From a virus, in the IMG/VR virus record IMGVR_UViG_3300031772_001877, positions 1-33,811 of that record: a DNA stretch of 33,811 nucleotides; one strand, written 5' to 3'. Positions within the stretch are counted from its first letter, which is position 1; each line of letters begins with the position of its first letter. Positions 1-33,811 of this stretch are shown piece by piece. The position numbers and the translations under genes were made by a program. The notes under the pieces are model-generated. The model did not search any database. It saw only the letters and a program-made list of their open reading frames with translations, and was not told the DNA's origin.

Positions 1-1690
1 GAAGAAACGTATCCAGATAGTATAAGGGGTACAATCGAACCCGAAGCTACTGTCCCCGATAGAATTGATCCGCTAGATATATGGTAGGGTCCGATTTGAC
101 CGCTTGCTATGTGCCCGCTCGTAACCCGGCCCGATTGCAAAACAAGAGCCGGAATATTGGTAATAAAATTAGAGTCTAAATGTCCACTCGCCACTATTCC
201 AGCGGCAATATCTCCGCTTGTAATTGCTCCGTTAGCAAGAGCCCCAGTCCCAATAGAGCCACTAGAAATGTGTCCAGATTGAATTGCACCACTTCCAATT
301 TTATCCCAAGAGACAATCCCGGAAGCTAAATGGTAATTTCCTATTTGACCGCTAGCGATATGGCCCGAAGTTACACGTCCAGATTGCAGTACAACTTGAT
401 AAATATTTGTAGTATACGAAGAATGAATTTCTCCGGAGCCAATTGATCCGGGGGAATAATGGTATCCGCCAATCTGACCGGATGCTATCATTCCGGAAAG
501 AATGGCTCCGCTTGTCAAGACTACATCTTTAATATTTGTAGTATAGGATGAATGAATATGCCCGCTTGCAATGGCTCCTGCCGCTATATCTCCGCTTGTA
601 ACGGCTCCATCGGCTAAAGCTCCAGTTCCTACGGAACCGCTGGAGATATGACCGCTTTGTATCGCTCCACTCCCGATCAAATTCCAAGTAACACTTCCAG
701 ATTGTAAAGAGAAACTGGGAGCCGCCCAGTTGAAATCATCTCTAAGATATTTAGTTCCATCCGGAGTTCCAGTTACTCCAAGTCTACCCGAAGTAACGGA
801 ACCACTAGAGATTGCAATATTACCAACTTGTCCGCTTGCTATATGACCAGAAAGAACACTCCCGGAAGTCAATACAACGTCTTTAATATTATTGATAAAG
901 TTAGAATCAATATGACCGCTCGCCACACTGGTAGCGGCAATATCTCCGGAAGTTACGGAAGCATCCGCGAGATGTACAGAGCCTATAATCCCCGAAGCAA
1001 TCAAACCGGAGATTATCAATGCCGCCACAAGATGCCCGCTTTTTACGGCACCCGCCGCAATATGCTTATCCCCGATTTGACCAGATGCTATGGCCCCGCT
1101 CAATATAGCTCCTGATCCGATATCATTAGGGCCTAGAGTCCCGGAAGCAATATGAGGCGTCGATCCAAGAGAACCTTGAACGGCTCCTGAAGCGACATGG
1201 CCCGATTGAACGGCTCCCGAAGTTAATCCTCCTCCGGTAGTTTGCCAAGTATAATCATCCCGAAGGAATTTACTTCCGTCCGGAGTTCCGGTTACGGCAA
1301 TTCTTCCGGAGGATATAGCTCCGCTTCCGATAGACCAATTATTTACTTGACCGCTCCCGATATGGCCAGACAAAACGGAACCGCTTCCCAATTTATGCCA
1401 GAGAACGGAACCGGAAGCAATCGCGCTCCCGCCCACGCTCCCGCTAGAGATATTTCCAGACTGAACCGCGCCACTTCCGATTTTATCCCAAGTAACAATA
1501 CCGGATGCAAGATGATATGAACCAATTTGACCACTGGATATTTGTCCAGATAGAACAGCCCCGCTACCAAGATTTGACCAGACCAATCTACCGGATGCAA
1601 GGTGATATTGCCCGACAACTCCGGATGCAATATTCCCGGAGCGAACGGCTCCGCTACCAAGTTGCCCGGTTAGAACGCTTCCGGAGGAAA
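1..1690 (-). repeat. Degenerate SGxIxSGxIG coding repeats
   Basis: The minus frame encodes dozens of short units such as SGHIASGQIG, SGAIQSGHIS and SGSVGTGALA. Longer super-repeats are visible: the stretch at nt about 181-340 and the stretch at about 555-710 encode nearly the same protein order (SGDIAAG, GTGALA, SGHISSGS) with many third-position differences. The protein repeats are therefore conserved while the DNA has drifted. The regular alternation suits a beta-helical or triple-stranded fibre shaft. A smaller block of the same kind lies at 2230-2390. Confidence 0.85.
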
Positions 1691-4256
1691 GATCGCTAGG
1701 AGTCTCAATATTTACGAATATAACTCCAGCCGTAGAATCTACAAATACGCAAGTCGCTATCTGTTGTGCATACGCGGGAGAAGCGGGCTTAACATTGGTA
1801 ATAGCTCCTGCTGTTGCGCTGAGATAAAGTTTATCTCCTCTAGTGAAAGAGGAAGTATCAATTCCGTGAATAAGACCTTTCCGCATCACCCTTACATATC
1901 CATAATCTCCGCACGCTTCCAGCGTTATGCCGAAGCACGGCATATAACTGTCTACGTCTGCATCCGCAAGATAAACCTCCGGAACGGCTCCGGAATATAA
2001 AGTCCCATAAAGATAAACGGCCTTCCCCTTGGCCATCGCATTGTAATTATTTTTACAACTAATAACTTCATCTTGGAAATGCTGAAGAACCGGACTTCCG
2101 GAATAGATGTTCTCTCGAATTACTGGGAAAGGGCTATCATAGTCTATCGTCCCATATTCCCGTATCAATCCGGAACCCGGAAGCGGCCTATCTCCGGACA
2201 TCCCCTTGAAGTCAACCCAATCATTGATAATAGGAGCCCGATAGTCCAGGCCGCTCGCTATTTTTCCGGATACGATTGCATCAGGATATATATGGGTATT
2301 CCCAATCTGACCCGAACCTATATTGCCCGAAAGGACGGCATTATTACCAATATATCCGGAAACGATACATCCGGAGGACAAAGAGGAGCCGCCCATTGTC
2401 GCCCATATCAAACCGTCCCAATAATATTTTGCTCCGTCAACGTGAGTAGCATCATCCCACTTGAAGAATTCCTCTCCTACAAAATTCCCCGATCCAGGGA
2501 GATTCTCTCCGGAGCGCATCTTGACAATATCGCTCCATGTAGTGCCGTCTCTGAATTGAAGTTTAAGCGGACCATTGGTAACGTCGGCCCCTACCGCTAT
2601 AAACATCCCCGGATATAGATTAACTTCATTTGGATTTGGTAATGTTACATCAACGAAAGGCTCCCTATGCTGCCGATGCAGAGCCTTTATCGCACTTATC
2701 GGCTCAAAGAATTTCTCCTCAAGCTCTTCGGTCAAATCATGGGAATGAATCCCAAGATATATTTCCGCCCTTAGTATTCTCTGATCTTTATCATCTCCCT
2801 TTGGCGCATGAATTTCTCTGACGATAGGCTTTCTGAAACCTCCCTTGGTATAATGAATTTTGGTAATATCAAGGTCTTCAAATTCGTTCGATACGTCCTT
2901 ACCATAAACGCGAACCATCCCAAGAGAGGAATCCGGATGATTCCTTTCAAGGCGTTTATCAATCTGATTCCAGGCAAGAGTTTTCCAGGAAGATTTTGCC
3001 TTCTTAAAAGCTATCTGATTATTCGCCCACGTCGAAGCGTCATAATCATGCTCGATCCAAGGAACAATAATAGGTTTCTCAAATAATCCATAGGCCGTTA
3101 TATCCGTAGCATCCGCAACGATCTTAACGTTTTCGTGATGCCCCCACTCCTTCATCCCAATCTTCAGTTGATTGGTTTTATCAATTCCTTTTCCGCCGTC
3201 TATGATATTAACAATATCTCTCTCCACAAAGAGAGAGTCAACAAAAGCTGTGGCCTTCTGGCGGAAATAGAATCTCCTCCCGGAATCAATGCCAAACTCT
3301 CTGCTCCCCTGCAATTCGGCAAGGAACTTAATTGCCTTTAGCGCACTCGTCTCGAAATGCAACGGACCCTGAGTAGTGTAAGTTGAAGAACTTACTCCAT
3401 TATCATCGTTTGTTACGTCTAGATCGCTCGGCCTAACGATACGGCTATTTGGCTTGACATAATTATCAATAATATCGTTAATGATTTGATCGACGCGGAG
3501 CCCCTTCGGATATCTCCGTTGTACCATGATATGAGCAAGCTGCTCAAGGTATCCCTGGCACCTTATATTTACGAGATAATCATTCCCATCCTGATGTTTT
3601 TCAACTCCCCGAATTACCCCCCGATACCATGTTGAATGAGTCTCTTCTCCATCCAGCATGATACGGGCATGGATTTCCCATCCGTATTTTAGAGCGACAT
3701 CGGCCTCCGGGAATGGATCGCGGATTGACAATATCGCGTTTCCGCATCCACCATTCCGATAATACCACCATTCCATAGCCTGATAGGTTTTGGATAGGAC
3801 TCTTACATCCTCGAATATAAATCCCGCCGCCGTCTTCGTCGGTCTAACAAGGAATATTTGTTCCGATACGGCCTCATACGGGACAAGATTTCCGGTTATT
3901 TCTCCAGGAATAGTTCCCGGAGGATTGCATTCTTCATTCAGTCTGGTTACGGGGCCCGTAGTGGAGACAATAGCCCCATCACAAGTGATAGCGGCAGAAT
4001 AATAATACGTTCCGTCTTTTACTATATTATGTTGGAATTGTAAATTTTGAGATGCCGGGCCCGTAGGAAGAGTTACTGTTGCTTCTATTTCTGTAAATAA
4101 GAATTGTGGCGCACCGCCATACTTAGCATAGATATGAGCTTTATATCCCGACGATCCGCACGGGATTGTTATCGGGACCACAACGACGTTGACACACTTA
4201 CCGGGAGTTGCTATTTCCAGTGTGCCAAATGTGGGAGAAGGTCCGGAACATGGCAT
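1..4256 (-). CDS. Tail hub / fibre protein with SG-repeat stalk (3' end cut by window)
   Basis: One open frame runs from an ATG just after the preceding TGA stop to the left edge, about 1418 codons, with no stop in the window. Residues about 1-620 are non-repetitive and look like a siphophage baseplate hub: an Ig-like start, then a mixed alpha/beta part (QGYLEQLAHIM, YPKGLRVDQIINDII, FETSALKAIKFLAELQGSRE). A short SG block (nt 2230-2390) is followed by a domain at nt about 1710-2230 with motifs typical of phage fibre proteins (HGIDTSSFTRGDKLYLS). The remainder is SGxIxSGxIG repeats. Two near-identical TPDG(S/T)K(F/Y)LRDD inserts, seen in many phage fibres, lie near nt 1230-1290 and 730-790. 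Its place after the distal tail gene fits a tip or adsorption protein. The hub role is inferred from order and style; the receptor is unknown. Confidence 0.8.
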   Translation of the reverse strand, partial: MPCSGPSPTFGTLEIATPGKCVNVVVVPITIPCGSSGYKAHIYAKYGGAPQFLFTEIEATVTLPTGPASQNLQFQHNIVKDGTYYYSAAITCDGAIVSTTGPVTRLNEECNPPGTIPGEITGNLVPYEAVSEQIFLVRPTKTAAGFIFEDVRVLSKTYQAMEWWYYRNGGCGNAILSIRDPFPEADVALKYGWEIHARIMLDGEETHSTWYRGVIRGVEKHQDGNDYLVNIRCQGYLEQLAHIMVQRRYPKGLRVDQIINDIIDNYVKPNSRIVRPSDLDVTNDDNGVSSSTYTTQGPLHFETSALKAIKFLAELQGSREFGIDSGRRFYFRQKATAFVDSLFVERDIVNIIDGGKGIDKTNQLKIGMKEWGHHENVKIVADATDITAYGLFEKPIIVPWIEHDYDASTWANNQIAFKKAKSSWKTLAWNQIDKRLERNHPDSSLGMVRVYGKDVSNEFEDLDITKIHYTKGGFRKPIVREIHAPKGDDKDQRILRAEIYLGIHSHDLTEELEEKFFEPISAIKALHRQHREPFVDVTLPNPNEVNLYPGMFIAVGADVTNGPLKLQFRDGTTWSDIVKMRSGENLPGSGNFVGEEFFKWDDATHVDGAKYYWDGLIWATMGGSSLSSGCIVSGYIGNNAVLSGNIGSGQIGNTHIYPDAIVSGKIASGLDYRAPIINDWVDFKGMSGDRPLPGSGLIREYGTIDYDSPFPVIRENIYSGSPVLQHFQDEVISCKNNYNAMAKGKAVYLYGTLYSGAVPEVYLADADVDSYMPCFGITLEACGDYGYVRVMRKGLIHGIDTSSFTRGDKLYLSATAGAITNVKPASPAYAQQIATCVFVDSTAGVIFVNIETPSDLSSGSVLTGQLGSGAVRSGNIASGVVGQYHLASGRLVWSNLGSGAVLSGQISSGQIGSYHLASGIVTWDKIGSGAVQSGNISSGSVGGSAIASGSVLWHKLGSGSVLSGHIGSGQVNNWSIGSGAISSGRIAVTGTPDGSKFLRDDYTWQTTGGGLTSGAVQSGHVASGAVQGSLGSTPHIASGTLGPNDIGSGAILSGAIASGQIGDKHIAAGAVKSGHLVAALIISGLIASGIIGSVHLADASVTSGDIAATSVASGHIDSNFINNIKDVVLTSGSVLSGHIASGQVGNIAISSGSVTSGRLGVTGTPDGTKYLRDDFNWAAPSFSLQSGSVTWNLIGSGAIQSGHISSGSVGTGALADGAVTSGDIAAGAIASGHIHSSYTTNIKDVVLTSGAILSGMIASGQIGGYHYSPGSIGSGEIHSSYTTNIYQVVLQSGRVTSGHIASGQIGNYHLASGIVSWDKIGSGAIQSGHISSGSIGTGALANGAITSGDIAAGIVASGHLDSNFITNIPALVLQSGRVTSGHIASGQIGPYHISSGSILSGTVASGSIVPLILSGYVS

Positions 4257-4257
4257 A

Positions 4258-4962
4258 TCAATTCACCATCAACCTATCGCCAAAATCAGAAAACCGTAGC
4301 CTCGATTTCAAGGCAAAGCGATAGATTTCCATCGTCTGTTCTATGCCCACAAATGCGGCCACAAGCGCAAGCAACGCTTCTCCGGGATAATGAAAATTGG
4401 TTAAAAGTCCATTGACCATTTTAAATTTATGTCCAGGGATTATCAATAAGTCCGAATACCCTTGATTTAGCCCCAGCTTATCTTGTGCATACGTTTCAAG
4501 AGATTTAACAACCGTCGTCCCGATAGCAAAGGAAGGGACCAACGGAACCATATCGAATCTGTAATATTCGGTATTCGATATTCCACGCTCATAGAAATCA
4601 TCTTCGGAAAGTCTTCCATTTCTAGGAGCCTCCAAAGTAACATACTGAATATTCAGTCTCTCAAGTATTTCTTTTGTTATTGGTAATCCCGCCGATGGTA
4701 CGGCCCACGTTCTTCCCGCCTGTGCATATATAGGCTCATGCCCGAACAGATGCCTACACGCGGGATCGAGTTTTGCGTTATTCGCGTAGCACAGTTCCTT
4801 CCCAATGATCGAGGGGAAATCCGCAAATTTGTGCATACGGATAAGCCCTGTCTTGCGCGTGAAGACCAATAGCTTTACATCAAATTCCCAATCCTTCCGA
4901 TAAGACGGGATAAGATCGTTCGGAAGATCAAATGAAATCAATTTTTTATCAAAGACTGGCAT
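4258..4962 (-). CDS. queA-like: Miniature QueA-like protein (S-adenosylmethionine:tRNA ribosyltransferase-isomerase family)
   Basis: The 234-aa product aligns by eye with both ends of QueA, which transfers the ribosyl group of S-adenosylmethionine to preQ1 in tRNA. FDLPNDLIPSYR matches the QueA N-terminus. AVPSAGLPITKEILERL matches the PTAGLHF region, and IGTTVVKSLET, IIPGHKFKMVNGLLTNFHYP and RLRFSDFGDRLMV match the C-terminal core. Bacterial QueA is about 340-356 aa; here about 90 residues between the NNTRVIPARLFG-like segment and the PTAGLHF-like segment are missing, which is the inserted second domain. The His of TAGLHF is Pro, HVGAGTF is absent, and MHSEY is SNTEY. Catalysis as QueA is therefore doubtful. 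The ATG shares an A with the TGA of the distal tail gene (TGATG) and the next gene starts 2 nt after this stop, so it is co-translated with tail genes. Family membership is confident; function is not. Confidence 0.8.
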   Translation of the reverse strand: MPVFDKKLISFDLPNDLIPSYRKDWEFDVKLLVFTRKTGLIRMHKFADFPSIIGKELCYANNAKLDPACRHLFGHEPIYAQAGRTWAVPSAGLPITKEILERLNIQYVTLEAPRNGRLSEDDFYERGISNTEYYRFDMVPLVPSFAIGTTVVKSLETYAQDKLGLNQGYSDLLIIPGHKFKMVNGLLTNFHYPGEALLALVAAFVGIEQTMEIYRFALKSRLRFSDFGDRLMVN

Positions 4963-5735
4963 CAATATCTTTCTTTGTATGTGAATGTATATTGTGCGGG
5001 GGCCCCCTCAACTTCAATCGTATTATTCCCGGCATCAAGCCAAAGGAACGTACCATAGAAATAAGTCAACTTATCTACGGTATCGACCTTAACAGTATAA
5101 CCAAGATTATCAATAACAAGCGTACTTCCATTCAGCACAGTCGTCATATACTTCTGAAGATACCCTGTAGTTAAATTCCGGATTACAACGTAAAGAGAAG
5201 GGTAGCCTCCGTTTACCAAAACAGAAGTTGAAAAGAAAACATATGATCCCCCACCATTGGCAACGACAAACTGTTTCTTGTAGATATGATTGGTAATATC
5301 TACGGGAGTATCGCCAGAAGTAAGACTTTCTACCTCCGGAGTAGGATCGGTTTCGGCATATTCAAACGGATCGGGACACGCGAAGCTGATTTCTATAGCC
5401 GCCGCCAACATGGCCGATCCGGGTATCCATGCCCACGAAAAATTTTCTTTAATCGCGTTGTAATACCTATCATTAAAATAATAAAGTTTCTTCTGCTCAT
5501 ATCCTAAAGCAGCTTCAAGCTCTCTTATTTTATCCCTAGTATCTTCGTCGCTCGTCCCGTATATCACTCCCTGTAATCTGATTCTCCTTATGTCAAGAAC
5601 GGGTTGAGATGCGGAGACTGCCCCATGCCGTTTCGGCATTCCCCTGAAATCAAGGCGATTCGGCATCGACTCATTCTGTAATTCGATATAATCGGTTATA
5701 TCTAGATCGCCAAATTTAATTAAATGAGTCGCCAT
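4962..5735 (-). CDS. Distal tail protein (Dit-like)
   Basis: The 257-aa protein starts at an ATG 8 nt after the tape measure stop, behind a clear AAGGAGAG site. The N-terminal half has the layout of siphophage distal tail proteins: a beta-rich start (MATHLIKFGDLDITDYIEL), then IRLQGVIYGTSDEDTRDKIRELEAAL followed by KKLYYFNDRYYNA, the usual helix and strand before the ring-closing strands. The C-terminal half (residues about 130-257) is beta-rich and may be a galectin-like or carbohydrate-binding-like lobe. Dit proteins form the hexameric ring joining the tail tube to the hub. Its position directly after the tape measure supports the call. Confidence 0.8.
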   Translation of the reverse strand: MATHLIKFGDLDITDYIELQNESMPNRLDFRGMPKRHGAVSASQPVLDIRRIRLQGVIYGTSDEDTRDKIRELEAALGYEQKKLYYFNDRYYNAIKENFSWAWIPGSAMLAAAIEISFACPDPFEYAETDPTPEVESLTSGDTPVDITNHIYKKQFVVANGGGSYVFFSTSVLVNGGYPSLYVVIRNLTTGYLQKYMTTVLNGSTLVIDNLGYTVKVDTVDKLTYFYGTFLWLDAGNNTIEVEGAPAQYTFTYKERY

Positions 5736-5743
5736 AACTCTCC

Positions 5744-8260
5744 TTATGGATTACTCGCCGCCGCGTCATTAATCGTCGCCACAATCTGATTACCAATATC
5801 CTTGCCTATCTGTTGCGCGTCCAAGGCACTATTTAACTGGGCAACGTTGACCGTAACATTTGTGGGACCAACCGTAACCGTTTGAGTCCCGCCTTCGGGC
5901 TCGACAAGTTGGCCCTGAGAAACCGCTCCTCCAAGGAAATTAGGATTCTTCGCTATATCTTCCACGTCGCCATAATTAAATCCGCCGCTAAAGGCTTGGC
6001 CTATTTCTGCCGCCGCTTCCGGAGTAGCCATCCCGCCGCCATATGATGCAATAATGGATTTCCTGAGAGAATCAGCGACCTCTTGCTTCTGCCTCTCTAA
6101 CTCCTGTTGAGCTAGATAGGCGGCATATTCATCTTCTTCCTTTTGCTTCTCTTGCTTCTTTTTATTTGCAGCCGCCATGATCCCGCCAAAGGCCATACCG
6201 AAAGGCCCCAGGAATACCCCGCCTAAAACGCCAACTCCGATATTTCCCTTTTTAACTTCCTGTGCATATTTAGACCATCCTGCAATCGCTCCTCCAGCGG
6301 CAAGAGCAAATATTCCGCCAGCGGCCATACCGCCAAGACCTCCGGTAGTAGTCGCCGTTCCGGTTGTCGTCGCCGCCCCTCCCCCCATTCCGAACATAGA
6401 GCCAACGTTTGAAAACATCCCTCCTGCCGCACTAGCCGCCGAAGTTCCGGCAGAAGCGGGGGCCCCAGGAGATGCAGCCTGAGCCCCTCCCCCAAACATA
6501 CCAAATAATTGATTGGTAATCTGACTCATCATTTGCTTGGCAATCATATCACTGAGCATCTGAATGAATGATTGCTTGATACTACGGAACATTTCCTTTA
6601 GGGCATCCTTGACCTTCATCGTCCCGGAGATAACATTTGCCAATGCATTAGACAATGAACTCTCAATAGTTTTTGCCGCATCAATCCAGAATTGCTTGAA
6701 GCTAAAAGTATCCTTTACCAACTCTTTCAAGGCCATTTGCAATCCGATAAACGGATCGGCTTCCGATGCCCTATGTATGGCATCGAGCATTTCTCCAAAT
6801 TCATAATCCCCTTGGGCTAGAGCCTTTGATAATTCCTCTACCTGTTGTTTGGTTAATTCAAGGCCCGTAGACTTCTGAAAAGAAGTTGCCGTCTGAAATA
6901 ATCTAGCTTTCTGTTTGTCTTTTTCGGCCATAGACTCCCGGCCTTGACGAAGATAGTCCCCTTCCTCTTTTACTGCAAGCCTTCTCTTTCTTAATTTTTC
7001 TTCTATCTCATTGCCAACCGGAGCCCCAAGAATATCGGGCATTCCCAATCTAGCCGCTTCTGCCAGAAGATCGAGCCCTTTTGTAAGAAGAGCGGCTTCT
7101 TTCTCTGCCGCATCTATGGGATCGGTCAACCCGGATGCAACAGCTACCCCAAGTTTGGTAAGTTCATCCCCTATATTACCCCATTCTTCTTCTATCTTTT
7201 CTTTCTCTACAGTCCTTTTCAATTCTTCTCTATTCGCTATGATAGATTTCTGAAGTTTATCTGCCTCTTCTCTAGCTCTTTTAAGATCAACGGCATACTT
7301 GGTAAGAGCAGCATCGTCGGCAAGCTCTTGTTTTAATTCGTCAACCTTCTCTCTTAATTTAGTTAATATCGCTACATCTTCATTCCCGGCTTCTCCAATT
7401 TGCGTTCTTTGTCTTAGAGACTCTTCATTAAAAGCCTTTTGTGCAACGTCAAGTTCTTTCGTCGAAGTTTCTTTTGTCTTTGGTAATCTTGGAGTAGGAA
7501 GCTCTTGATATTTTCTATAAAGTTCTCCCTGTGCTAGAGTCATTCTCTCTATAGATATAAGAGTCTTTTTATAAGCGTCTTCCTGTCCCTCAAGAGCTAT
7601 CTTCTCTTTTTCCGAAGCCTGAACCGCGAGATTAGACGCCATCGCTCTTTCTGCACGATGCTCGATAAGAACTTTTAGATTCTTTTCCATCTCATCCCGT
7701 AACTTTAGCTCCTTCTCTCTTGCTTCAGCCAATTGATCGTAATATCCTTTGATAACTATAGCGAGAGCCGAAAAAGCTCCAATCGCAATTCCTAAAACTC
7801 CGTGCAAAAGCATTGTGGCCGAACCGTAAGCCATCAATGCGTGACTGCCCGTTTGTATAGCCTTTGATGCTTTATCGGAGCCATCGCTTAACGAGCCGAA
7901 CATATAGCCAACTGCGGATAGTCTTCCCCCCATCCTGCCCATACCCTTGAAGAATCTATTGGACACTATTTCCGTATTCCATATAGACTTACCAAGTTTA
8001 GCAGTTTCTTCTCCTTGATCTTTTAATCCTCTAGTATAAGCCCTTGATCCGGTAAGAGCCCCCATTAATGCGCTTCCGAAACCGCCGAATCCGCCTTTAA
8101 GATCGTTAAATCCCTTAGCCGCTTGTTTTGTGGTATTTGGAATTAGACCAAGCTCTTTTTTTAGATTTTCAACACTCTGTTTAATCTGTTCGGCGTCTCG
8201 ACGGAATACCTCTTCCCCTTCCGTCGTTAGCTTTAGCCCTACTTCAATCTGTTCGTCCAT
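5744..8260 (-). CDS. Tail tape measure protein
   Basis: This is the longest complete non-fused frame of the tail block (838 aa). It begins with MDEQIEVGLKLTTEGEEVF and has long charged coiled-coil segments (about residues 175-350 and 400-560), a hydrophobic stretch at about 140-172 and a second Gly/Ala-rich hydrophobic region at about 645-710. This alternation is characteristic of tape measure proteins, which fill the tail tube, set its length and can insert into the host membrane. By the usual rule of about 1.5 angstrom per residue it would imply a tail near 125 nm (inference). It follows the chaperone frames by 6 nt, as in most siphophages. Confidence 0.9.
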   Translation of the reverse strand: MDEQIEVGLKLTTEGEEVFRRDAEQIKQSVENLKKELGLIPNTTKQAAKGFNDLKGGFGGFGSALMGALTGSRAYTRGLKDQGEETAKLGKSIWNTEIVSNRFFKGMGRMGGRLSAVGYMFGSLSDGSDKASKAIQTGSHALMAYGSATMLLHGVLGIAIGAFSALAIVIKGYYDQLAEAREKELKLRDEMEKNLKVLIEHRAERAMASNLAVQASEKEKIALEGQEDAYKKTLISIERMTLAQGELYRKYQELPTPRLPKTKETSTKELDVAQKAFNEESLRQRTQIGEAGNEDVAILTKLREKVDELKQELADDAALTKYAVDLKRAREEADKLQKSIIANREELKRTVEKEKIEEEWGNIGDELTKLGVAVASGLTDPIDAAEKEAALLTKGLDLLAEAARLGMPDILGAPVGNEIEEKLRKRRLAVKEEGDYLRQGRESMAEKDKQKARLFQTATSFQKSTGLELTKQQVEELSKALAQGDYEFGEMLDAIHRASEADPFIGLQMALKELVKDTFSFKQFWIDAAKTIESSLSNALANVISGTMKVKDALKEMFRSIKQSFIQMLSDMIAKQMMSQITNQLFGMFGGGAQAASPGAPASAGTSAASAAGGMFSNVGSMFGMGGGAATTTGTATTTGGLGGMAAGGIFALAAGGAIAGWSKYAQEVKKGNIGVGVLGGVFLGPFGMAFGGIMAAANKKKQEKQKEEDEYAAYLAQQELERQKQEVADSLRKSIIASYGGGMATPEAAAEIGQAFSGGFNYGDVEDIAKNPNFLGGAVSQGQLVEPEGGTQTVTVGPTNVTVNVAQLNSALDAQQIGKDIGNQIVATINDAAASNP

Positions 8261-8922: not shown

Positions 8923-9906
8923 CTAGCCCGCAAGACTCGCCGTAGTGATGTTCCGCATCACAACCGTAAGCTCATTGGCCGAATCCGTCCGATAAGCCTT
9001 GAAGTTTACCTCCATTATCAATCTTCCGGGACTATTCAACACAACTTTATGACTCACGATTTTTGCCACAGGAAGATTGAAAGTAATCTGATTATAATAC
9101 GTTCCTCCGATTACATCTCCGATGAACTGAGCATTAAAGACTCTTTCTGTAGCAGCGCGGAAATCATCATATTCGGCCCAGCTAGTAAATTCGGCTTGGA
9201 ACGTCCCGCTAACCGTCAACTTCCCGGAGCGTTTCGGTTGCCTCGTATAGCGAGAGCCCAACTTCGGCCTTCCCTCAAGAGTATTGGCAATATCAATTGT
9301 AAAATTAGAAACTTCTACGTCATTGGCATTCCACTTTATAATGCCCTGATGATAGACCGCCAATTTACTCGTATTATAGCTGGGAGTAGACTTCGATCCC
9401 CGCGCTTCGTTATGGCCTATCACCGTGAAACGACACTTCAGGAGATCATCAACCCCGCAAGAGAAGGAGCCCGCCGAAATCAGGCAACCGTCATAAATAA
9501 AACTCTTGCTAGGCTCCGTAACAAAATCTTCTGTTGCTCTGTAAACTTCAAGGGTAAGGCCAGTAGGAAGCGAATTCGCAATATCAAACGTATGGTCCCA
9601 TACCGTAGGATAACTGGTAACGTCAGGACGCGAAGACGAGATAGAGCCCATGAGATGCTTCAGGAGTCTTTCCCACCCTGCATATTGAGCGTCGAATCCA
9701 AAGTCTCCCGCTACACTTACTCCACCCTGAACGCTCTTTGTATTCCGGATTCCGACAGCCGCGAGAGCCCCGCTTTCAATCTGTGGCTCCTCGACGCCTA
9801 TAGATTCTTCGTTGATTTCAAGGAAGTTGGTTCTTGCGATAGGAGTCCCGTAAACGCTTTCCTGTCCATATCCAAGAAACCCGACAAGCCCTAGTCCGAC
9901 TCCCAT
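8923..9906 (-). CDS. Major tail tube protein
   Basis: The 327-aa protein has a strong AGGAAGGAG site. It begins MGVGLGLVGFLGYGQESVYGTP, the usual start of tail tube proteins ('GYG.Es.yGT'), followed by beta-rich sequence with a late motif pattern (SNFTIDIANTLEGR, LTVSGTFQAEF, LIMEVNFKAYRT) typical of the TTP fold. Hexameric rings of this protein stack to form the tube. It sits between the tail terminator-like gene and the chaperone, and good expression is suggested by the strong ribosome site. Confidence 0.85.
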   Translation of the reverse strand: MGVGLGLVGFLGYGQESVYGTPIARTNFLEINEESIGVEEPQIESGALAAVGIRNTKSVQGGVSVAGDFGFDAQYAGWERLLKHLMGSISSSRPDVTSYPTVWDHTFDIANSLPTGLTLEVYRATEDFVTEPSKSFIYDGCLISAGSFSCGVDDLLKCRFTVIGHNEARGSKSTPSYNTSKLAVYHQGIIKWNANDVEVSNFTIDIANTLEGRPKLGSRYTRQPKRSGKLTVSGTFQAEFTSWAEYDDFRAATERVFNAQFIGDVIGGTYYNQITFNLPVAKIVSHKVVLNSPGRLIMEVNFKAYRTDSANELTVVMRNITTASLAG

Positions 9907-9919
9907 TTTAATCTCCTTC

Positions 9920-10405
9920 CTATATTTTCGTTCTTACCTTGACTTCAATTTCGGTAGCGCAAGCAAGCAAATCGGCACTTATCGAAGAAACGTAATTATC
10001 CTCCATCGGCTCTATCTCTATACTCTTAGGAAAGGCCCAAAGAACTTGCCCGTTTGATAATGTAAGAGTAGCAAGTCTAAAATTATCATAGATCATTTCC
10101 GCTATCGAGTTTATATCCGCGATTTTAGATTCAAGAACGTTGTTTGAAAGATCGACTTTTCTGATGTATACAATTCTAATCGGATAAGTAATTATCTGAT
10201 TCTTTGGTAATTCGGATGCTCCGATCCCAATTGTATTTTTAATAGTAACCCAAACGCCATTAACCATATTGGTAATATCTTCGGGAGGCAGCCAATTCAT
10301 ATCCCCCCGATATATGCCAACAAGATTTAGAGATGTTTTAAGATTCGTCTCAATCAATTCCATGATATGAGCTAGGATTTCGTTGGTATGGATTCTTTGA
10401 GTCAT
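9920..10405 (-). CDS. Tail terminator-like protein
   Basis: The 161-aa protein starts one base-step after the preceding stop (TAAATG), with GGGAAAG upstream. It opens with a helix (TNEILAHIMELIETNL), then alternating beta strands and one helix (IADINSIAEMIYDNFRL), the size and pattern of tail terminator / tail completion proteins that cap the finished tail tube. The position just before the tail tube gene supports this. There is no diagnostic motif, so the call is by context. Confidence 0.6.
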   Translation of the reverse strand: MTQRIHTNEILAHIMELIETNLKTSLNLVGIYRGDMNWLPPEDITNMVNGVWVTIKNTIGIGASELPKNQIITYPIRIVYIRKVDLSNNVLESKIADINSIAEMIYDNFRLATLTLSNGQVLWAFPKSIEIEPMEDNYVSSISADLLACATEIEVKVRTKI

Positions 10406-17292: not shown

Positions 17293-17736
17293 TTATAGAC
17301 GCGGAGGCTCCGTTACAAAGGTTACAGAAACGGGAATTAATTTATGCCTTATTGAAACTAGATAATTTATGGATTTCTCTACAGAGTTTATCAATTCTAC
17401 AAGCGTCGTCTTATGGCAGTCTATATCAAACCAGAATGCCGCCTTTACCATTGTCCTATACGGCCTTATCTTATAGCAGCCGTTATATCCTATAGGAGCT
17501 TGAATAATCTCCTCTCCATGTTTATGCAATGGGCATCTTCCGCAAATCCCTTTGCATCCCACCCTATCCGTAGTCTTCCTATAATTCCGGCAGTATGCAC
17601 ATTGAAAATATTCAGTTAGCTTTATCGCCTCTACTCTTGCCTCTTCCATAGCTCCGCAAGTCAAAGCGGATTTGAGTCCGTCTCTGACTGCGGTTAATTT
17701 TGTCAGAGCCTCAAGGAATATTTCACCGGGATTCAT
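17293..17736 (-). CDS. Cys-rich protein, possible zinc binder
   Basis: The 147-aa protein overlaps the end of the spermidine synthase gene by 14 nt. It has a helical start and a Cys cluster at residues about 46-69 (CAYCRNY ... GCKGICGRCPLHKH) that could hold one or two zinc ions, plus a second helix near the end. No family recognised. Because it is coupled to the polyamine pair and precedes the protease gene, either a metabolic partner or a structural accessory role is possible. Confidence 0.55.
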   Translation of the reverse strand: MNPGEIFLEALTKLTAVRDGLKSALTCGAMEEARVEAIKLTEYFQCAYCRNYRKTTDRVGCKGICGRCPLHKHGEEIIQAPIGYNGCYKIRPYRTMVKAAFWFDIDCHKTTLVELINSVEKSINYLVSIRHKLIPVSVTFVTEPPRL

Positions 17737-18544
17737 ATTCGATAGCCTCTATATGCTCGAAGAGTTCATAGTATTCCAGTTCTTCCGGCCCTACCTCTGT
17801 AGCTTTACCAAAAGCTGTTTTGATATGGCGCTCCGTTGCGTATCGACAAGCCGCCGGGATATCTCTTTGTTGCGAAAGATTTGTCTTGCTCGAAATCATG
17901 AAACTATCATGAGCCCCACGCCTGTCATAATAGACATCATAATTCCAAAGATAATATCCGAACTCAAGCATATTCCTGGCATATCTCGCCAGATACTCCG
18001 TATGCACACTGGTTTGAGCGGAGAGAATGCCATTAGGCTTCAGCCTCGAAACAAATAGATTGATAATATCTGGAGAAAATAAATCGTCATATTTCTTGGC
18101 CGCATTCGCTCCGGAAGGAGAAGGAAAATCTAAGATTACCAAATCGTATTCTTCTTTTGATTCCTTCGCAAAATCTATGGCGTTCTTTATATGGACTTTA
18201 CATTTTTCGTCTAAAAGCGATTTACAATTCTGTCCCACAAGCATCTTATCTTCACTGAAGAGATTAATCATCTCTCCATCTATTTCTACCAGATCAATCT
18301 CAACGTTACCAAATCTTAATATTTCCCTTGCCGCCAATCCATCCCCCCCGCCCGCGATAAGCACGCGGTCAAGGCCCGCGCACGCGCAAGCGGGGATCGT
18401 CGCTATAGACTCATGGTAGCGATACTCAAACGCGGATGCATATTGCCATGTCGTATCCAGATAGAGGATATGCTCTCCTCTATAAATTGGATCATTGGCA
18501 ATAGTGATTCTTTGAAATTTACTTTGTTTATCAATGATATTCAT
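17723..18544 (-). CDS. speE: Spermidine synthase-like aminopropyltransferase
   Basis: The ATG at 18544 overlaps the decarboxylase stop (ATGA) with AAGG just upstream; longer starts would lie deep inside that gene. The 273-aa product has the family order: LYLDTTWQYASAFEYRYHE (Q34, Y43, H44, E45), LIAGGGDG (63-69), DLVEID (84-89) for the nucleotide part of decarboxylated S-adenosylmethionine, NAID (D123), and LDFPSPSG (138-145) in place of DS(S/T)DPxG. The first Asp of that motif (D139) is kept but the second, used for polyamine contact, is Ser. The C-terminal part differs from standard SpeE. The expected reaction moves an aminopropyl group to putrescine or another amine; the changed motif leaves the acceptor uncertain. 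Confidence 0.85.
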   Translation of the reverse strand: MNIIDKQSKFQRITIANDPIYRGEHILYLDTTWQYASAFEYRYHESIATIPACACAGLDRVLIAGGGDGLAAREILRFGNVEIDLVEIDGEMINLFSEDKMLVGQNCKSLLDEKCKVHIKNAIDFAKESKEEYDLVILDFPSPSGANAAKKYDDLFSPDIINLFVSRLKPNGILSAQTSVHTEYLARYARNMLEFGYYLWNYDVYYDRRGAHDSFMISSKTNLSQQRDIPAACRYATERHIKTAFGKATEVGPEELEYYELFEHIEAIEYESR

Positions 18545-18918
18545 ATATTCCTTAGTCCTGTCCAGTTTCCTAGAGCGTCCTTTTCCATGGCGAAATATCG
18601 CATCTCCGTAACCTGTTGCTTTTCCCTGAGCCATATGCATAGGGCTTCGTAATTGAAGTTTTTGCATCCAGCTATTTCAAGCTCTATGGTTTTATTCTCC
18701 GGATATGTGGTAACGATTGCATGGCTCTCATTGAGGAAAGCCACAAGCGTTTTCGCGCCCTTTGGTTTCCTGTAGTCTTCCTCCACGATCCTCCGTATGC
18801 GGAACCCCGCGATATCGCAAGCGGTCCTGAGAAGCTCCGTCATGGCGTATTTATTTCTGACGATATCCTTGCAACAGAAACGGAGAGTAGCGTTAAATAC
18901 GACAACATTACCAATCAT
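18541..18918 (-). CDS. speD: S-adenosylmethionine decarboxylase-like proenzyme
   Basis: The 125-aa protein has the size of the short bacterial class of AdoMet decarboxylase. LVAFLNESH contains the self-cleavage pair Glu64-Ser65 that would produce the pyruvoyl group, and TTYPE and Cys85 follow at the right spacing (20 residues from the Ser, as in Thermotoga SpeD). The processing His of the family (His68 in Thermotoga, in IHTWPE) is Thr70 here, and the Ser55 equivalent is Thr57. The adjacent spermidine synthase gene, joined by ATGA, strongly supports the assignment. Some SpeD-family members decarboxylate arginine or ornithine instead, so the altered residue makes substrate identity an open question. 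Confidence 0.85.
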   Translation of the reverse strand: MIGNVVVFNATLRFCCKDIVRNKYAMTELLRTACDIAGFRIRRIVEEDYRKPKGAKTLVAFLNESHAIVTTYPENKTIELEIAGCKNFNYEALCIWLREKQQVTEMRYFAMEKDALGNWTGLRNI

Positions 18919-20888
18919 AGTCTATCAAGCTCCTCTATACCCAGGATCAAGGCTTCCTCTTCCTGCTCTAGGAGCAGCCAATCCTTCCTAGTCCAAGAAA
19001 CGCCGCCCTCCCTTCCGACTATGCGAGCGTCTGAACTAAGACCTATTCTTTTCTTGGCTACCAAAGATATATAGGCGTCTGAATACTTTGATAATTCTTG
19101 GGTATACAGAATCCTCGAATCAGAATACTGATTCAGGATCATTGAGCGGAGGATTCTTGCCAATGAATCTTTAGTAAAGCTCTGTGTTACGAATACCCTC
19201 GAATCAGAAGTCTTGCTCGATTCCTGAGTCTTCAGGATTCTTGAATCAGACAGCCTACTTATTTCCTGAGTCTTGAATATCCTTGAGTCTGATGTTTGGT
19301 AGATATCGTATGTCGTAGCACCGGATATTTTGGCGTCAGAGTAAATATCTACAGCCTGAGTCTTTAATATTCTCGAATTAGATAGTTTGGTAATCTCCTG
19401 AGTCTTTAGGATTCTCGCATCTGACGTTTTATAGATTTCATAAACGCTAGATGTATATATCTTGGCATCTGAATATATTGATAACGATTGAGTTTTCAGG
19501 ATTCTGGCGTCAGATAGTTTATCAATAGACTGAGTTTTCAGGATTCTGGCGTCGGATAGTTTGCTAGTGCTTTGAGTCTTGAATATCCTCGAATCGGAAA
19601 GCCGATCAATAGATTGAGTCTTCAGAATCCTCGCATCCGAAAGCCGATCTATAGACTGGGTTTTTAGAATTCTGGCATCGGATGTTTTAAAGATTTCATA
19701 AACATTCGTGAAGTACGTCCTGGCATCTGAATATATTGATAACGATTGAGTCTTTAGGATTCTTGCGTCTGATAATTGATTCGCGCTTTGAGTCTTGAAT
19801 GCCCTTGCGTCAGACGGCCTATCAATGCTCTGAGTCTTGAATACCCTCGCGTCAGAAGTCTTCGATAGACTACTGAGCAGATATATCAGGGCATCCGAAA
19901 GTTTATCTATACTCTGTGTCTTTAGTATTCTGGCATCAGAGTATTGGCTTGTGCTTTGAGTCTTGAATACTCTTGCATCTGACAGCTTGCTATCAGCCTG
20001 AGTCTTGAAGATTCTGGTATCTGATAGTTTACTTGTCTCCTGAGTCTTGAATATCCTAGCATCGGATGTTTGGTATATATCGTAAGTAGTCGCTCCGAAT
20101 ATCTTTGCATCGGAGTATAGATACGTCTCTTGAGTCTTGAATACCCTGGAGTCTGAAGCCTTGCTTGCCTCCTGTGTCTTGAATGCTCTAGCGTCAGACA
20201 GTTTGCTTATGCTCTGAGTCTTCAGGATTCTCGCGTCAGATGTTTTGGTAATTTCATAGTAATACTTTGGACGGAGAGCCACTAGATAGCAGTTATTGAG
20301 CCTACCCGTATTCAGGGTACAAGTCTGATTGCTTGTCGCCCCGGCAGGAGTCTTTGAATAATCTCCTATACCCTGACTTGGATAGTTATTGGAATATGCG
20401 CTTTCATATTCCTCTGCCATACTGCTCGACCAACTGCTAAACGTAGCGCGGTTTTCCGTCCCGACAAACATTACCACTTTTGCGGTATCTGTTGCCGTTG
20501 TCAACCCTGTTGCCGTCGCCGTAGTGCTGGAAGCATTCGCCAGAGCCGTTGTAGTGGTATCTTCGGGAGTATATGTGCTGACGTTATACCACGCAGCAAT
20601 GACAGCCCTGATAGCCCCGCCGCCAGAATGGGTAACGGTAGGAGTACTATCTCCAGTTTGTAATACTCTCCTAAATAAAGTAGTCCTGAATCCGGTCCCG
20701 TTATTCAGCCCACTATTGATAACGGTCCAGTCTGCCGACATTGTTGCGGAGACGTTATCGCGGGAGGAAATAAAGCAATAAGCAACGTCTCCAGGTTCCC
20801 ATCCGCTAGGCAAGGCTGGAGCGACATTGCCGCTTGTGGCAGCGGCAGGAGTACCGTAACCCCTAAATTGTATGGTTTGGATTGCCAT
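18915..20888 (-). CDS. Putative head decoration / fibre protein with SDAR-KTQ repeats
   Basis: The 657-aa protein starts in a TAATG overlap. Residues 1-207 form a beta-sandwich-like domain (LPSGWEPGDVAYCFISSRDN, ADWTVINSGLNNGTG, TTTALANASSTTATATGL) of a type seen in phage and secreted surface proteins. Residues 211-625 are 29 degenerate units of SIDKLSDARILKTQ type, mostly 14 aa, with occasional 16-aa YDIYQ/YEIYK variants. The last 32 residues (SWTRKDWLLLEQEEEALIL) are a short helix-rich end. A rod or adhesive stalk projecting from the head is plausible given its position between portal and protease genes. No enzymatic motif is present, and the function is unproven. Confidence 0.65.
   Translation of the reverse strand: MAIQTIQFRGYGTPAAATSGNVAPALPSGWEPGDVAYCFISSRDNVSATMSADWTVINSGLNNGTGFRTTLFRRVLQTGDSTPTVTHSGGGAIRAVIAAWYNVSTYTPEDTTTTALANASSTTATATGLTTATDTAKVVMFVGTENRATFSSWSSSMAEEYESAYSNNYPSQGIGDYSKTPAGATSNQTCTLNTGRLNNCYLVALRPKYYYEITKTSDARILKTQSISKLSDARAFKTQEASKASDSRVFKTQETYLYSDAKIFGATTYDIYQTSDARIFKTQETSKLSDTRIFKTQADSKLSDARVFKTQSTSQYSDARILKTQSIDKLSDALIYLLSSLSKTSDARVFKTQSIDRPSDARAFKTQSANQLSDARILKTQSLSIYSDARTYFTNVYEIFKTSDARILKTQSIDRLSDARILKTQSIDRLSDSRIFKTQSTSKLSDARILKTQSIDKLSDARILKTQSLSIYSDAKIYTSSVYEIYKTSDARILKTQEITKLSNSRILKTQAVDIYSDAKISGATTYDIYQTSDSRIFKTQEISRLSDSRILKTQESSKTSDSRVFVTQSFTKDSLARILRSMILNQYSDSRILYTQELSKYSDAYISLVAKKRIGLSSDARIVGREGGVSWTRKDWLLLEQEEEALILGIEELDRL
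19014..20258 (-). repeat. 42-bp coding repeats (SDARILKTQ units)
   Basis: In-frame tandem repeats of mostly 42 bp, about 29 units, encode x-x-x-K/Q/I-x-S-D-A/S-R/K-I/V-L/F-K-T-Q. Three or four longer 30-aa cycles (YSDA(K/R)I...YDIYQTSDARI) punctuate the array. Neighbouring units differ largely at synonymous positions, though several pairs near 19490-19680 are almost identical, suggesting recent duplication or recombination. Confidence 0.9.
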
Positions 20889-21916: not shown

Positions 21917-24775
21917 TTACTTTTTCTTTCCCTTGTTCTTCTCGTCCTCATCATCATCGTCCACGGTTTCCTCAGTTTTTGTAACGCCTGTAACCCGTCC
22001 GGTCCTTTCATCCCTGGAAACTTCAGTCTTCTCCACCCGCTTCGGCATCTTCAGCTTCGCATTAATCTTGATTTCCGGATTGACATTAACAATGATCGGA
22101 GTTTCCTTCTTCTCCACTTCCACCGGAGCGGGAGGCATTTCGATATTAATTTGTGGCTTGACTTCGACCTTCGGAGCTTCAACCGTAGTCTTAACAATCG
22201 GCCTCTCCGGTTTCGGGATCGTTACGTTGACATTGATATCGGGCGGCTTCGATTCGGGGATATTGATAATCGGTTCCACCTTGATCGTATCCGGCTCACG
22301 CGGAGGATTGACCATCTTATCAATATTCAGAATCACTTGCACGGGCGATTTCCTCATATCATCCTCTTCATCACGCTTCTCCCTGCTAATTCCGGCCAGC
22401 CTGAGCTTCTCATCGGCACGGGACATTTCTTCCGCTATACGGCGGGCCTCGTCAACCGTCTCGTCAATGTCCCCGAACTCCTCAACCGTATCGGGGAAGT
22501 CCAGTATGCATACGCAATTAACAATATTCTCCGGACTGGCGACGGGATCGCCGGGACCGTCCATTTCGTCAAAACTGCCATCACGATTGGGGACATCAAA
22601 TTGCTCGTCAATCCCCTTAACAACTCCATGCATATCCCAATGATTTTCTCCTCCGGGACGTTGACGGGTTGTATCAAGCAATTCGCTTACCCAACGCTTC
22701 TTTTTCGCAACCCCCGATTGTTTCGCCCCCTCAAGTCTGGCGAATTGAGTTAGCGTAACGGTTTCGGTTCTAGCAATAGTTCTAGCCCGCATCTCCGCGA
22801 TATCTCCCTTAAATACCCTCTGGATACGTTCCATCATTTCATCGAAGCCTTCTCCGTCCTTGATAGCCTTTGATAATTCATTACCAAGGATGTTACGGGT
22901 TGTCTTTCCGATGTCGTCTATATATTCGCCGCCCATCTTCTTCAGGAATTTCTCTATCCGCTTTTCGCGCATATCAAATACTATCCCTCGGGAAAGGCTT
23001 CCAAGGGTAAAAGTCCCATGCTTTTTGATAATCTTCTTTGCTTCCTTGACTATCACTTCGCCCAGCTTCTTATCCTCCATGATATTGATAATCGTACTCT
23101 CGATATCGGAGGGCATAGACGCCTTGGCCATGTTGAATGGATCGGTATAGGCTTCCTTGACAATCTTCTCCGCAATCGGAACCCTATTCTTTCTGGCCTC
23201 CTTTATAGGGTACCAAGACATTATTGCCGGGAGAATCCTGTTCATTTGTTTGGAAAAATGATCCAGCATTACAGACTTCAATTGCTTGTAATCCGGAGTA
23301 GCAAGACCTTTCCAAACACTCCATGTTTTCCAATCTCTGACTTGAGCAGGATTATTCCAGTCCGGATCGGAGATATCCATTTTCTCAAAATCAGCTTTTG
23401 CTCTTGGCATACTCCCGCCCATTGGAGTAGATTGATTTTGTGTTTTTGTAGCGTCCTGATTTCTCTCCTTTGTATTAAAATCAGGAGTCCCGCCGGGAGG
23501 AGGCATCGCGGCATTAGCCCCCGAACTGGGTTGCGCTAATCCGACAGGGAGCCAAGGTTCTTTACCCCAATCAACGGCCTTCTTATTGTAGAGCTTCTGG
23601 CGCACTTCGTTGATTGTCCAAATACCATGAGATACTAGTGTCATGGCCACTTGAGTAAGAACTGAAATATCTTCTACAATCGCGGTTATCTCTTCGACAA
23701 GGAACTTGATCCGCGTCCCAGCGGGCATCAGATTTTTATTTGCTATCTGTTGTATACGGGCAATCTTCGGGATAATATTGTCCATATAAAACATTTTCTT
23801 CTGTTCGCGTAGATTACCATAGTTGGCGTGTTCCAATAGCCCTACAACCCCCGGAGGCACGCGCCAGCACGCGAGAGAATCTTCCCGTGTCATGCTGTTC
23901 ATTTCGGCCATTTGCATATCACGCTGATTAAATCCAATCGGCTTGTATTTCAATCCCTCTTCAAGGATCGCAAGCTCGAATGCATTGGCCGTGCCCTTGT
24001 GCCTCGCGTGCCATTGTTTCCTCAATCTTTGATAAGTTTGATCCGAAAGACTTCCATCGGTTTCAAGCACGCCTTCGGGAACGGCGGAATTCTTGAAGAA
24101 TGCTTTATTGTAACTGGTAGCATATGAATTCAGAATCAGAGAATTCGCCGCCGCGCACGCGGGCGAGAGCCCGCGATATTCGTCCAGCGGAGAGAAATAT
24201 TTTATATGCGTAACCTCACTGGCCCCAAATATGATTTCTACTCCTGGACGCGGCTCATAGATATATCCCGCAATTTTCACTTTAGGATGGGGAATAATCC
24301 TGATTTTATCGGGACGCATCGGATAGACGGCGATAAGATTGTCTTTGTCGTCATGGACTTCTTCCCAAAAAACTTCTCCCGCAAGCTCAAGATAAATTAT
24401 TGAAGACTCCACAAATTCGTACCAAACTTGATTAGGATTCGGAATCGAAATCACCGTGACGATAGGCTTATCTTTTATTTCCTCATCCTTCAAATCAGTG
24501 ACGCGATATCCTACGGAAGCGATTGCCGTGGCTATTGCTTGGACGCACGAATAGGCCCATGGATTGACTTGATAAACTTTAAGGAAAGACTCTATATCAT
24601 TGGCGGGATTGATCGAATCCGATCCAATCCCGAATCTATCGGATGTCTCCCACCTTTCGTAATCGTCCGGATCGCCCTGGACTCTCCGGATGGTAGATTT
24701 ATTGAAGGGAGAGATTACTCCCGCTTTTCTACGCGAAAATAAATTTTTGACAAATTGAAGCGTCTGCTTAATCAT
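21917..24775 (-). CDS. Portal protein fused to a MuF-type head morphogenesis domain
   Basis: The ATG at 24775 is preferred because GGAG lies 7 nt upstream and it follows the terminase stop directly; an ATG 12 nt earlier is possible. The 952-aa product has an HK97-type portal (residues about 1-420: NPWAYSCVQAIATAIASV, SIIYLELAGEVFWEEV, LDEYRGLSPACAAANS, RVPPGVVGLLEHANYGNLREQ). A linker rich in Pro/Gly/Gln follows, then a MuF domain (about 600-770: ARTIARTETVTLTQFARLEGA, KKRWVSELLDTTR, HWDMHGVV, ENIVNCVCILDFP). The tail (about 790-952) is a Pro/Val/Glu-rich run of short strands (INIPESKPPDINVNV, VEVKPQINIEMPP) ending in a Lys/Asp-rich stretch. Portal forms the DNA gate; MuF is a minor head protein. 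The fusion is intact, with no frameshift. Confidence 0.9.
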   Translation of the reverse strand: MIKQTLQFVKNLFSRRKAGVISPFNKSTIRRVQGDPDDYERWETSDRFGIGSDSINPANDIESFLKVYQVNPWAYSCVQAIATAIASVGYRVTDLKDEEIKDKPIVTVISIPNPNQVWYEFVESSIIYLELAGEVFWEEVHDDKDNLIAVYPMRPDKIRIIPHPKVKIAGYIYEPRPGVEIIFGASEVTHIKYFSPLDEYRGLSPACAAANSLILNSYATSYNKAFFKNSAVPEGVLETDGSLSDQTYQRLRKQWHARHKGTANAFELAILEEGLKYKPIGFNQRDMQMAEMNSMTREDSLACWRVPPGVVGLLEHANYGNLREQKKMFYMDNIIPKIARIQQIANKNLMPAGTRIKFLVEEITAIVEDISVLTQVAMTLVSHGIWTINEVRQKLYNKKAVDWGKEPWLPVGLAQPSSGANAAMPPPGGTPDFNTKERNQDATKTQNQSTPMGGSMPRAKADFEKMDISDPDWNNPAQVRDWKTWSVWKGLATPDYKQLKSVMLDHFSKQMNRILPAIMSWYPIKEARKNRVPIAEKIVKEAYTDPFNMAKASMPSDIESTIINIMEDKKLGEVIVKEAKKIIKKHGTFTLGSLSRGIVFDMREKRIEKFLKKMGGEYIDDIGKTTRNILGNELSKAIKDGEGFDEMMERIQRVFKGDIAEMRARTIARTETVTLTQFARLEGAKQSGVAKKKRWVSELLDTTRQRPGGENHWDMHGVVKGIDEQFDVPNRDGSFDEMDGPGDPVASPENIVNCVCILDFPDTVEEFGDIDETVDEARRIAEEMSRADEKLRLAGISREKRDEEDDMRKSPVQVILNIDKMVNPPREPDTIKVEPIINIPESKPPDINVNVTIPKPERPIVKTTVEAPKVEVKPQINIEMPPAPVEVEKKETPIIVNVNPEIKINAKLKMPKRVEKTEVSRDERTGRVTGVTKTEETVDDDDEDEKNKGKKK

Positions 24776-24776
24776 T

Positions 24777-33135: not shown

Positions 33136-33317
33136 ATCTCGCCAAGATACAGGAGACTTAATACTTGCCTCATCGTGAATTTATTCCTATGCCTTTTGAT
33201 TCTTGCGTCCATCTTCTTCGCTTCTGACTTGGGATTAATATGGCAACAGGAACACTTCATCCCGCCAGGGCCATCCACGGCCTTAGACTTCTCCTTTTTG
33301 TAAAGTGATTTTTCCAT
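33132..33317 (-). CDS. Small basic Cys-containing protein
   Basis: A 61-aa frame coupled at both ends (TAATG before, ATGA after). It has GGMKCSCCHINPKSEAKKMDAR: three Cys and one His close together, then a basic helix (RIKRHRNKFTMRQVLSLLYL). It could bind zinc or nucleic acid. No family recognised. Confidence 0.5.
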   Translation of the reverse strand: MEKSLYKKEKSKAVDGPGGMKCSCCHINPKSEAKKMDARIKRHRNKFTMRQVLSLLYLGEI

Positions 33318-33811
33318 TAGCCTAACTTTAGTAAATTTATAATCCTCTTTATCAGGCTGGGATTGTTGGGGTCGAACGTTTCATTTCCTATTGCGGATTT
33401 TATCTGAGTCGGCTCGAATGCTATAAAGTGAATCGTTCCCGGATTCATCCCCCGCATCTTCTGACCGATTCTACGTTGAGAACCGAATTTGATATCTACC
33501 GTGGAATCTATAATTCCGTCATACCCGGCAGCTTCAAATGCCGCCCGCATAATTTCTTTACTTACCAGCTTTCCGTTATCATCGGTGTAGTAATTAAATT
33601 CTTCATCTTTAGAAATGATATCGACTAATTTCGATGCCGATATCCCATCCTCCTCTTCAAGTATCTTCGTCACTACATCATCAACTTTTCCGCCACTAAA
33701 ATCCCCATACCGATTCGATATATCCCGCAAGGAAACAATAAAGTCTACCAATTTTCCTTTTTCGTTCCCGTCTTCGTCCACGTCGTAATCAAGATAGGAT
33801 TCCTTCTTCCC
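33317..33811 (-). CDS. C-terminal part of an ADP-ribosyltransferase-like protein (5' end outside window)
   Basis: The frame is open to the right edge; an internal GTG at 33781 is not taken as the start because the upstream sequence is coding-like. The last part reads AGYDGIIDSTVDIKFG, then IHFIAFEPTQIKSAIGNETFDPNNPSL, the pattern 'GYDGI ... vF.p.QIKSa.gN.gtFDP.NP.I' typical of ADP-ribosyltransferase domains in phage polyvalent proteins and of related effector ends. The catalytic N-terminal residues lie outside the window. It ends IINLLKLG, the same start as the Gly-rich module found in the next genes. Confidence 0.6.
   Translation of the reverse strand, partial: GKKESYLDYDVDEDGNEKGKLVDFIVSLRDISNRYGDFSGGKVDDVVTKILEEEDGISASKLVDIISKDEEFNYYTDDNGKLVSKEIMRAAFEAAGYDGIIDSTVDIKFGSQRRIGQKMRGMNPGTIHFIAFEPTQIKSAIGNETFDPNNPSLIKRIINLLKLG

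Follow-up and report, generated by a model that had tools for sequence, protein, structure and literature searches.

QueA is the tRNA preQ1(34) S-adenosylmethionine ribosyltransferase-isomerase, which transfers the ribosyl part of S-adenosylmethionine to preQ1-tRNA and isomerises it, and its core is interrupted by an inserted second domain, a beta-barrel. To our knowledge, QueA is known only for this one step of queuosine synthesis. With respect to viruses, passages of PMC6884629 state that no virus analysed there encodes QueA, QueG or QueH, and the absence of QueA from viruses is repeated in PMC8265664; passages of PMC9837993 and PMC2647930 concern host genes. Searches of open-licence literature listed no article with a QueA-like tail gene as its topic, judged by title or opening lines. 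Here, we describe a shortened QueA homologue, mini-QueA, that lies between tail genes of a virus. The window, meaning the whole stretch of DNA analysed, is a 33,811-base IMG/VR virus record (contig G000), and its mini-QueA protein is called P0001. The following features of the window define the setting of the gene:

24777-26477, minus strand: terminase
21917-24787, minus strand: portal fused to a MuF part
8923-9906, minus strand: tail tube protein (PF18906, E 2.4e-29)
5744-8260, minus strand: tape measure protein (phrog_12798, E 1.4e-11)
4962-5735, minus strand: Dit, the distal tail protein (phrog_33, E 1.3e-19; PF22768, E 7.2e-7)
4258-4962, minus strand: mini-QueA, 234 residues, without the inserted second domain (PF02547, E 5.5e-34; matches to QueA structures in the PDB)
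3-4256, minus strand: putative hub and tail fibre protein, which leaves the window (phrog_196 in the N-terminal part, tail-fibre profiles in the C-terminal part)

The head and tail operon of the window, all on the minus strand, runs from terminase through portal-MuF, protease, capsid, probable connectors, tube, a 150-residue gene, tape measure and Dit to mini-QueA and the hub/fibre gene. An initial annotation had placed at 4258-4962 a reading frame resembling both ends of QueA, and these coordinates are exact: the frame opens with an ATG at 4962, closes with a stop at 4260-4258, and its product matches positions 5-64 and 235-321 of the QueA profile. The annotation had also described the gene as coupled to Dit and followed by the hub at 2 nt. 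The start codon does overlap the Dit stop (TGATG), but the hub ATG comes 1 base after the mini-QueA stop, not 2. Of the broader claim of a QueA-core protein built into a tail operon, the domain loss and the operon setting stand; the downstream gene is a probable hub, on the strength of a weak match to the phrog_196 baseplate-hub profile in its N-terminal part (E 6.5e-4) and of gene order, and a search of solved structures returned no match for it. For Dit, a single solved-structure match pointing to an ADP-ribosyltransferase (E 0.0036) was taken as chance.

The relationship of P0001 to QueA is clear at the sequence level. The protein scores 118.2 bits against PF02547 (Queuosine_synth), with a gathering cut-off of 25, which places it in the superfamily. 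Against the solved QueA structures 1vky, 1wdi and 1yy3, its E-values are 1e-20 to 1e-19, and E-values of this order rule out chance similarity. The possibility that its closest relatives would turn out to be ordinary baseplate proteins was not borne out, as the only significant homologues found were QueAs and other mini-forms. Two of these, L014 and L015, score 103.7 and 81.5 bits against PF02547. P0001 does not, however, qualify as a QueA equivalog: the NCBIfam QueA model NF001140 gives E 2.6e-31 and 108.8 bits against a cut-off of 324, a second NCBIfam QueA model gives 100.7 bits against 267, and L014 likewise stays under these cut-offs. Among phage protein families, phrog_28663, which carries no function label, matches the C-terminal ~90 residues of P0001 (E 2.3e-20), and no other PHROGs family was found; its profile differs in being full-length, with 394 positions. 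Four features of the protein are needed for the comparison with QueA:

4738-4761, minus strand: junction where the inserted domain is missing, residues 68-75 (6 residues versus 92-105 in QueA, by alignment)
4684-4698, minus strand: motif PSAGL (PTAGL in QueA), residues 89-93; P89 and A91 kept, T90 replaced by S in four minis
4513-4521, minus strand: motif GTT, residues 148-150, identical across the aligned QueAs and minis
4390-4401, minus strand: motif TNFH, residues 188-191; T, N and H constant across the aligned QueAs and minis, F190 replaced by W in L102

The segment at the site of the second domain measures 92-105 residues in 22 full-length QueAs but 6 in three minis, so that 86-99 residues are missing, in agreement with the earlier estimate of about 90. 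The alignment also places a loss of about 10 residues around a later helix and one of 5 before 'YVTL'. The mini-form of L102, with 225 residues, aligns with the others and lacks the second domain as well. What the minis share with QueA is both halves of the core domain, together with the motifs P-[TS]-A, GTT, E156, TN[FW]H and GD; what sets them apart is the missing domain, the loss of HVGxGTF and of three near-invariant histidines, a score at about a third of the QueA cut-off, and a place in a tail operon.

Searching for the same mini-form beside Dit in other phages, as the initial annotation had suggested, yielded three further phage contigs, with identities down to 35%. L014 (in contig G001) and L015 (in G002, cut by the contig end) are clear mini-forms found in IMG/VR scans, and both contigs are collinear with the window in portal, protease, capsid, tube and Dit, G001 also in terminase and hub. 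The third, L102, lies in the 93.7-kb contig G010, is 35% identical to P0001 and, judging from coordinates, overlaps both Dit and hub by one base. The gene directly follows Dit in 4/4 mini contigs and is directly followed by the hub in all three in which that position is visible (G000, G001 and G010). A fifth contig, L105 (G013, 73 kb), has a related Dit and hub with no mini-QueA between them and no PF02547 match anywhere along its length, so mini-QueA is present in four of the five contigs with a visible post-Dit region; L103, L104 and G009 end before Dit and are left out of this count. Such a conserved position in the tail operon, beside Dit and hub, is what a siphovirus tail-tip component would show. 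The four minis form one clade (support 100/99), with L102 apart from the other three. Placing this clade within the QueA tree was prevented by long branches, and a parent QueA could not be assigned.

This count of minis is a minimum, since pattern scans need exact short peptides and L102 escaped all three scans run with the protein or its alignments. An IMG/VR scan with the window protein alone gave no match, while an alignment of QueAs plus the window protein gave 73 loci, of which 2 are minis, 67 are QueA reading frames (full or cut by a contig end) and 4 (L078 and L084-L086) have no reading frame of 100 residues. A genome collection contributed one ordinary QueA, and the matches in 19 phage and 61 plasmid records never covered 80% of the query. 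Scans with tube, Dit and hub returned only G001 and G002 again (G001 for the hub); the terminase added G009, and four more distant contigs were reached with a broader alignment of the tube. Among isolate phages, Dit and hub had no match, terminase had one weak record, tube had one virus (two records), and portal and capsid had distant matches only.

The rate of change speaks to how the gene is maintained. Between G001 and G002, mini-QueA has a pN of 0.149 and a pS of 0.648, and Dit has 0.153 and 0.646; the resulting pN/pS for mini-QueA is about 0.23, with synonymous change near saturation. Between the window and G001, identity is 49% for mini-QueA, 41% for Dit and 62% for the tube. In the G001-G002 comparison, mini-QueA changes at the pace of Dit, under purifying selection. 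QueA genes do occur at the ends of many contigs classed as viral, which could suggest a decaying or mis-assembled fragment of a host QueA. That explanation is refuted by the conserved architecture, and we give it practically no weight: four contigs share the arrangement, the frame is intact, selection is purifying, and phage genes flank mini-QueA on either side.

Structure prediction is in line with a QueA core. An AlphaFold model of P0001 built with QueA rows in the alignment has a mean pLDDT of 84 (low at residues 74-89); its superpositions on 1wdi, 1vky and 1yy3 score Z 21.7-23.4, with 1wdi as the best match. The structural entries ranked after QueA reach Z 3.6 at best, so the comparison held no close relative of the fold outside the family; a resemblance to phosphoribosyltransferases, at Z up to 3.6, was judged meaningless, and the BFVD library of viral structures gave no match at E <= 0.001. 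A prediction from three minis alone stopped at pLDDT 30, with no usable model. As the good model drew on QueA rows and the minis-only model failed, the fold is not independently confirmed. The outcome that would have spoken against the initial annotation, a structure with no QueA core, was not seen with QueA rows, where the core is modelled; the minis-only alignment formed no model in which to look for it.

To describe which residues were kept, we used 72 columns that are near-invariant in the 22 full QueAs, 62 of which are present in both P0001 and L014. The QueA residue is kept in both proteins at 29 of these 62 columns, and at 23 also in L102, which falls short of the QueA set. Of these 23, ten are polar QueA residues, found in all three complete minis (N61, E132, T149, T150, E156, T188, N189, H191, Y214 and D229). 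None of the four minis keeps the QueA residue at 33 of the 72 columns; at seven of these columns three or more minis have a gap, and L015 falls short of the last three. The losses include the near-invariant histidines H94 (P in 4/4), H127 (G in 4/4) and H130, and at other positions every mini has the same new residue: T90 became S, R153 became K, T170 became S, S195 became E and M199 became A. The segments TAGLHF, HVGxGTF and MHSEY are all altered, as had been noticed at the outset. HVGxGTF is gone in three minis, and L102, the most distant one, retains HIGG in its place as well as the R26, P22 and Y222 of QueA; since L102 keeps more QueA traits, the loss was stepwise. P0001 and L014 agree with each other at 46/62 near-invariant columns, compared with 65/172 other columns (p 1e-6, a value that serves as a guide only, the rows being related). 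The pattern fits a protein that was redefined and then constrained, and not one that is decaying.

One rival reading is that mini-QueA is purely a structural part of the tail tip, a ligand-free QueA fold that acts as an adaptor or chaperone between Dit and hub. The place in the operon, the overlap with Dit and the Dit-like rate would all suit such a part, as would the loss of the second domain and of 33/72 near-invariant positions. Polar family residues, moreover, are kept no more often (11/27 in P0001 and L014) than nonpolar ones (18/35), which counts against a kept pocket as distinct from a kept fold. Against this reading, the three complete minis, at identities of 35-49%, have all held on to one set of ten polar residues, and the related phage L105 manages without the protein. 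On balance, we consider a purely structural role unlikely.

The retained residues could instead point to a stand-alone accessory enzyme. With S-adenosylmethionine or a comparable nucleoside, it would act on phage DNA, host tRNA or a small molecule, all of them substrates outside the virion, and its gene would simply be carried along in the late operon. In favour of this reading, the ten polar residues persist at 35% identity, as do the GTT and TNxH motifs, the absence of the gene from L105 marks it as accessory, and the structural operon of the window also contains genes for an AdoMet decarboxylase and an aminopropyltransferase. These two genes lie in a trio at 17293-18918 (minus strand), between portal and protease, made up of a SpeD-like AdoMet decarboxylase (PF02675, E 4.4e-10), a spermidine-synthase-like aminopropyltransferase (PF01564, E 1.8e-27) and a 147-residue gene; a similar trio is found at L104:2509-4092. 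Neither enzyme is encoded in G001, G002 or the 21 kb of L102 that were compared, and G009 has no aminopropyltransferase. The SpeD-SpeE genes are a separate insert, and a link with mini-QueA was set aside, as relatives that carry the mini-form do so without them. Also against an enzyme acting elsewhere are the position directly after Dit in 4/4 and directly before the hub in 3/3 contigs, the rate resembling that of Dit, and the loss of three near-invariant histidines in 4/4 minis. We rate the stand-alone enzyme as possible, though doubtful.

The region downstream of mini-QueA suggests a partner. One further feature of the window is relevant here:

3921-4256, minus strand: first ~112 residues of the hub, a stretch with cysteines; the L014 and L102 hubs open with similar domains

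A cysteine-containing domain of about 100-112 residues opens the hubs of the window, G001 and L102, with an apparent repeat of it in the latter two. In L105, the hub has no convincing match to this domain; it opens with other repeats, and its similarity to the window hub begins at residue 125 of the latter. Mini-QueA and the hub N-terminal domain thus occur together in three contigs and are both lacking in one (L105), and this co-occurrence makes the hub a likely partner, although a handful of contigs makes for thin evidence.

Taking these observations together, we tentatively favour, at a little short of an even chance, the reading that mini-QueA is a QueA-fold protein neofunctionalised as an accessory of the tail tip, where it works with the hub. 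A phage ancestor would have acquired a QueA, which would then have shed its second domain along with three histidines retained by full QueAs; new residues would have become fixed, and part of the core site kept. Mini-QueA would be made alongside Dit and hub, with coupled translation as the probable means, and at the tail tip it may serve as an accessory factor of the hub, binding or modifying either the cysteine-containing N-terminal domain of the hub or the Dit-hub junction. The old pocket perhaps holds a nucleoside-like ligand, and the protein would not make queuosine. Because L105 has a related Dit-hub junction without mini-QueA, the protein is not required in all such tails. A QueA core that survives in a tail operon without the second domain and part of the invariant residues would show re-use of the fold, would mark which QueA residues separate from its work on tRNA, and would bear, as a further case, on how enzymes turn into parts of virions. 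A bolder version, which we think quite unlikely, holds that mini-QueA is a virion-borne enzyme at the tail tip that uses S-adenosylmethionine or another nucleoside on the hub N-terminal domain, or on a host surface target or a DNA target as the phage enters; if true, a ribosyltransferase that modifies tRNA would have been recruited into the tail.

Queuosine synthesis itself offers another explanation, in which mini-QueA is a minimal QueA that still works and, during infection, finishes queuosine in the tRNA of host or phage. It belongs to the PF02547 family at the sequence level, and two other viral contigs do carry a full-length QueA. We nevertheless regard this explanation as very improbable, given the 109 bits out of 324 (about a third of the equivalog cut-off), the missing second domain and the 33/72 near-invariant positions at which no mini has the QueA residue; in addition, TGT, QueC and QueH were not found in G000, G001 or G002, all of which are fragments. 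The two contigs with a full-length QueA are large, L082 (162 kb) and L083 (166.6 kb), and their status as phages depends on how IMG/VR classes them and, for L083, on the match to phrog_28663. In L083, the gene lies in a run with QueF, QueC, QueD, QueE and FolE (L083:9362-13560), exceeds two NCBIfam cut-offs and matches phrog_28663 at 4.5e-76, so that this family has a member within a queuosine-biosynthesis run, unlike the mini-forms. QueC is encoded in both contigs, and neither has a TGT or QueH match. Given L082 and L083, the statement in the initial annotation that phage queuosine genes do not involve QueA is not supported in that form, and the mini-form and these full-length QueAs also go against what PMC6884629 and PMC8265664 say.

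Several minor observations concern other QueA genes and the remainder of the window. Between L047 and L077, 26 loci (match at 10001-10279) are viral contigs that end with a QueA gene, and these are perhaps host DNA beside prophages integrated near queA; in L007, a tRNA-Leu lies beside queA. A Streptococcus salivarius plasmid encodes a divergent full-size QueA-like protein (WP_149561065.1, at L010:1452-2498), near genes for thymidylate synthase and an AAA ATPase. Like the minis, it has lost HVGxGTF and MHSE, keeps GTT and TNFH, and scores under the QueA cut-off; unlike them, it keeps the LHF histidine and the second domain (348 residues), its annotated neighbours include no tail gene, and it falls outside the mini group in the tree, though its branch and that of the minis are both long. 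This protein, too, may have taken on a new role with the QueA fold. In the window, a 657-residue protein made up largely of degenerate SDARILKTQS-like repeats (18915-20888, minus strand) adjoins the polyamine genes, and a reading frame at 33317-33781 (minus strand) has a sub-threshold match to a polyvalent-protein ADP-ribosyltransferase (PF18760, E 2.5e-5).
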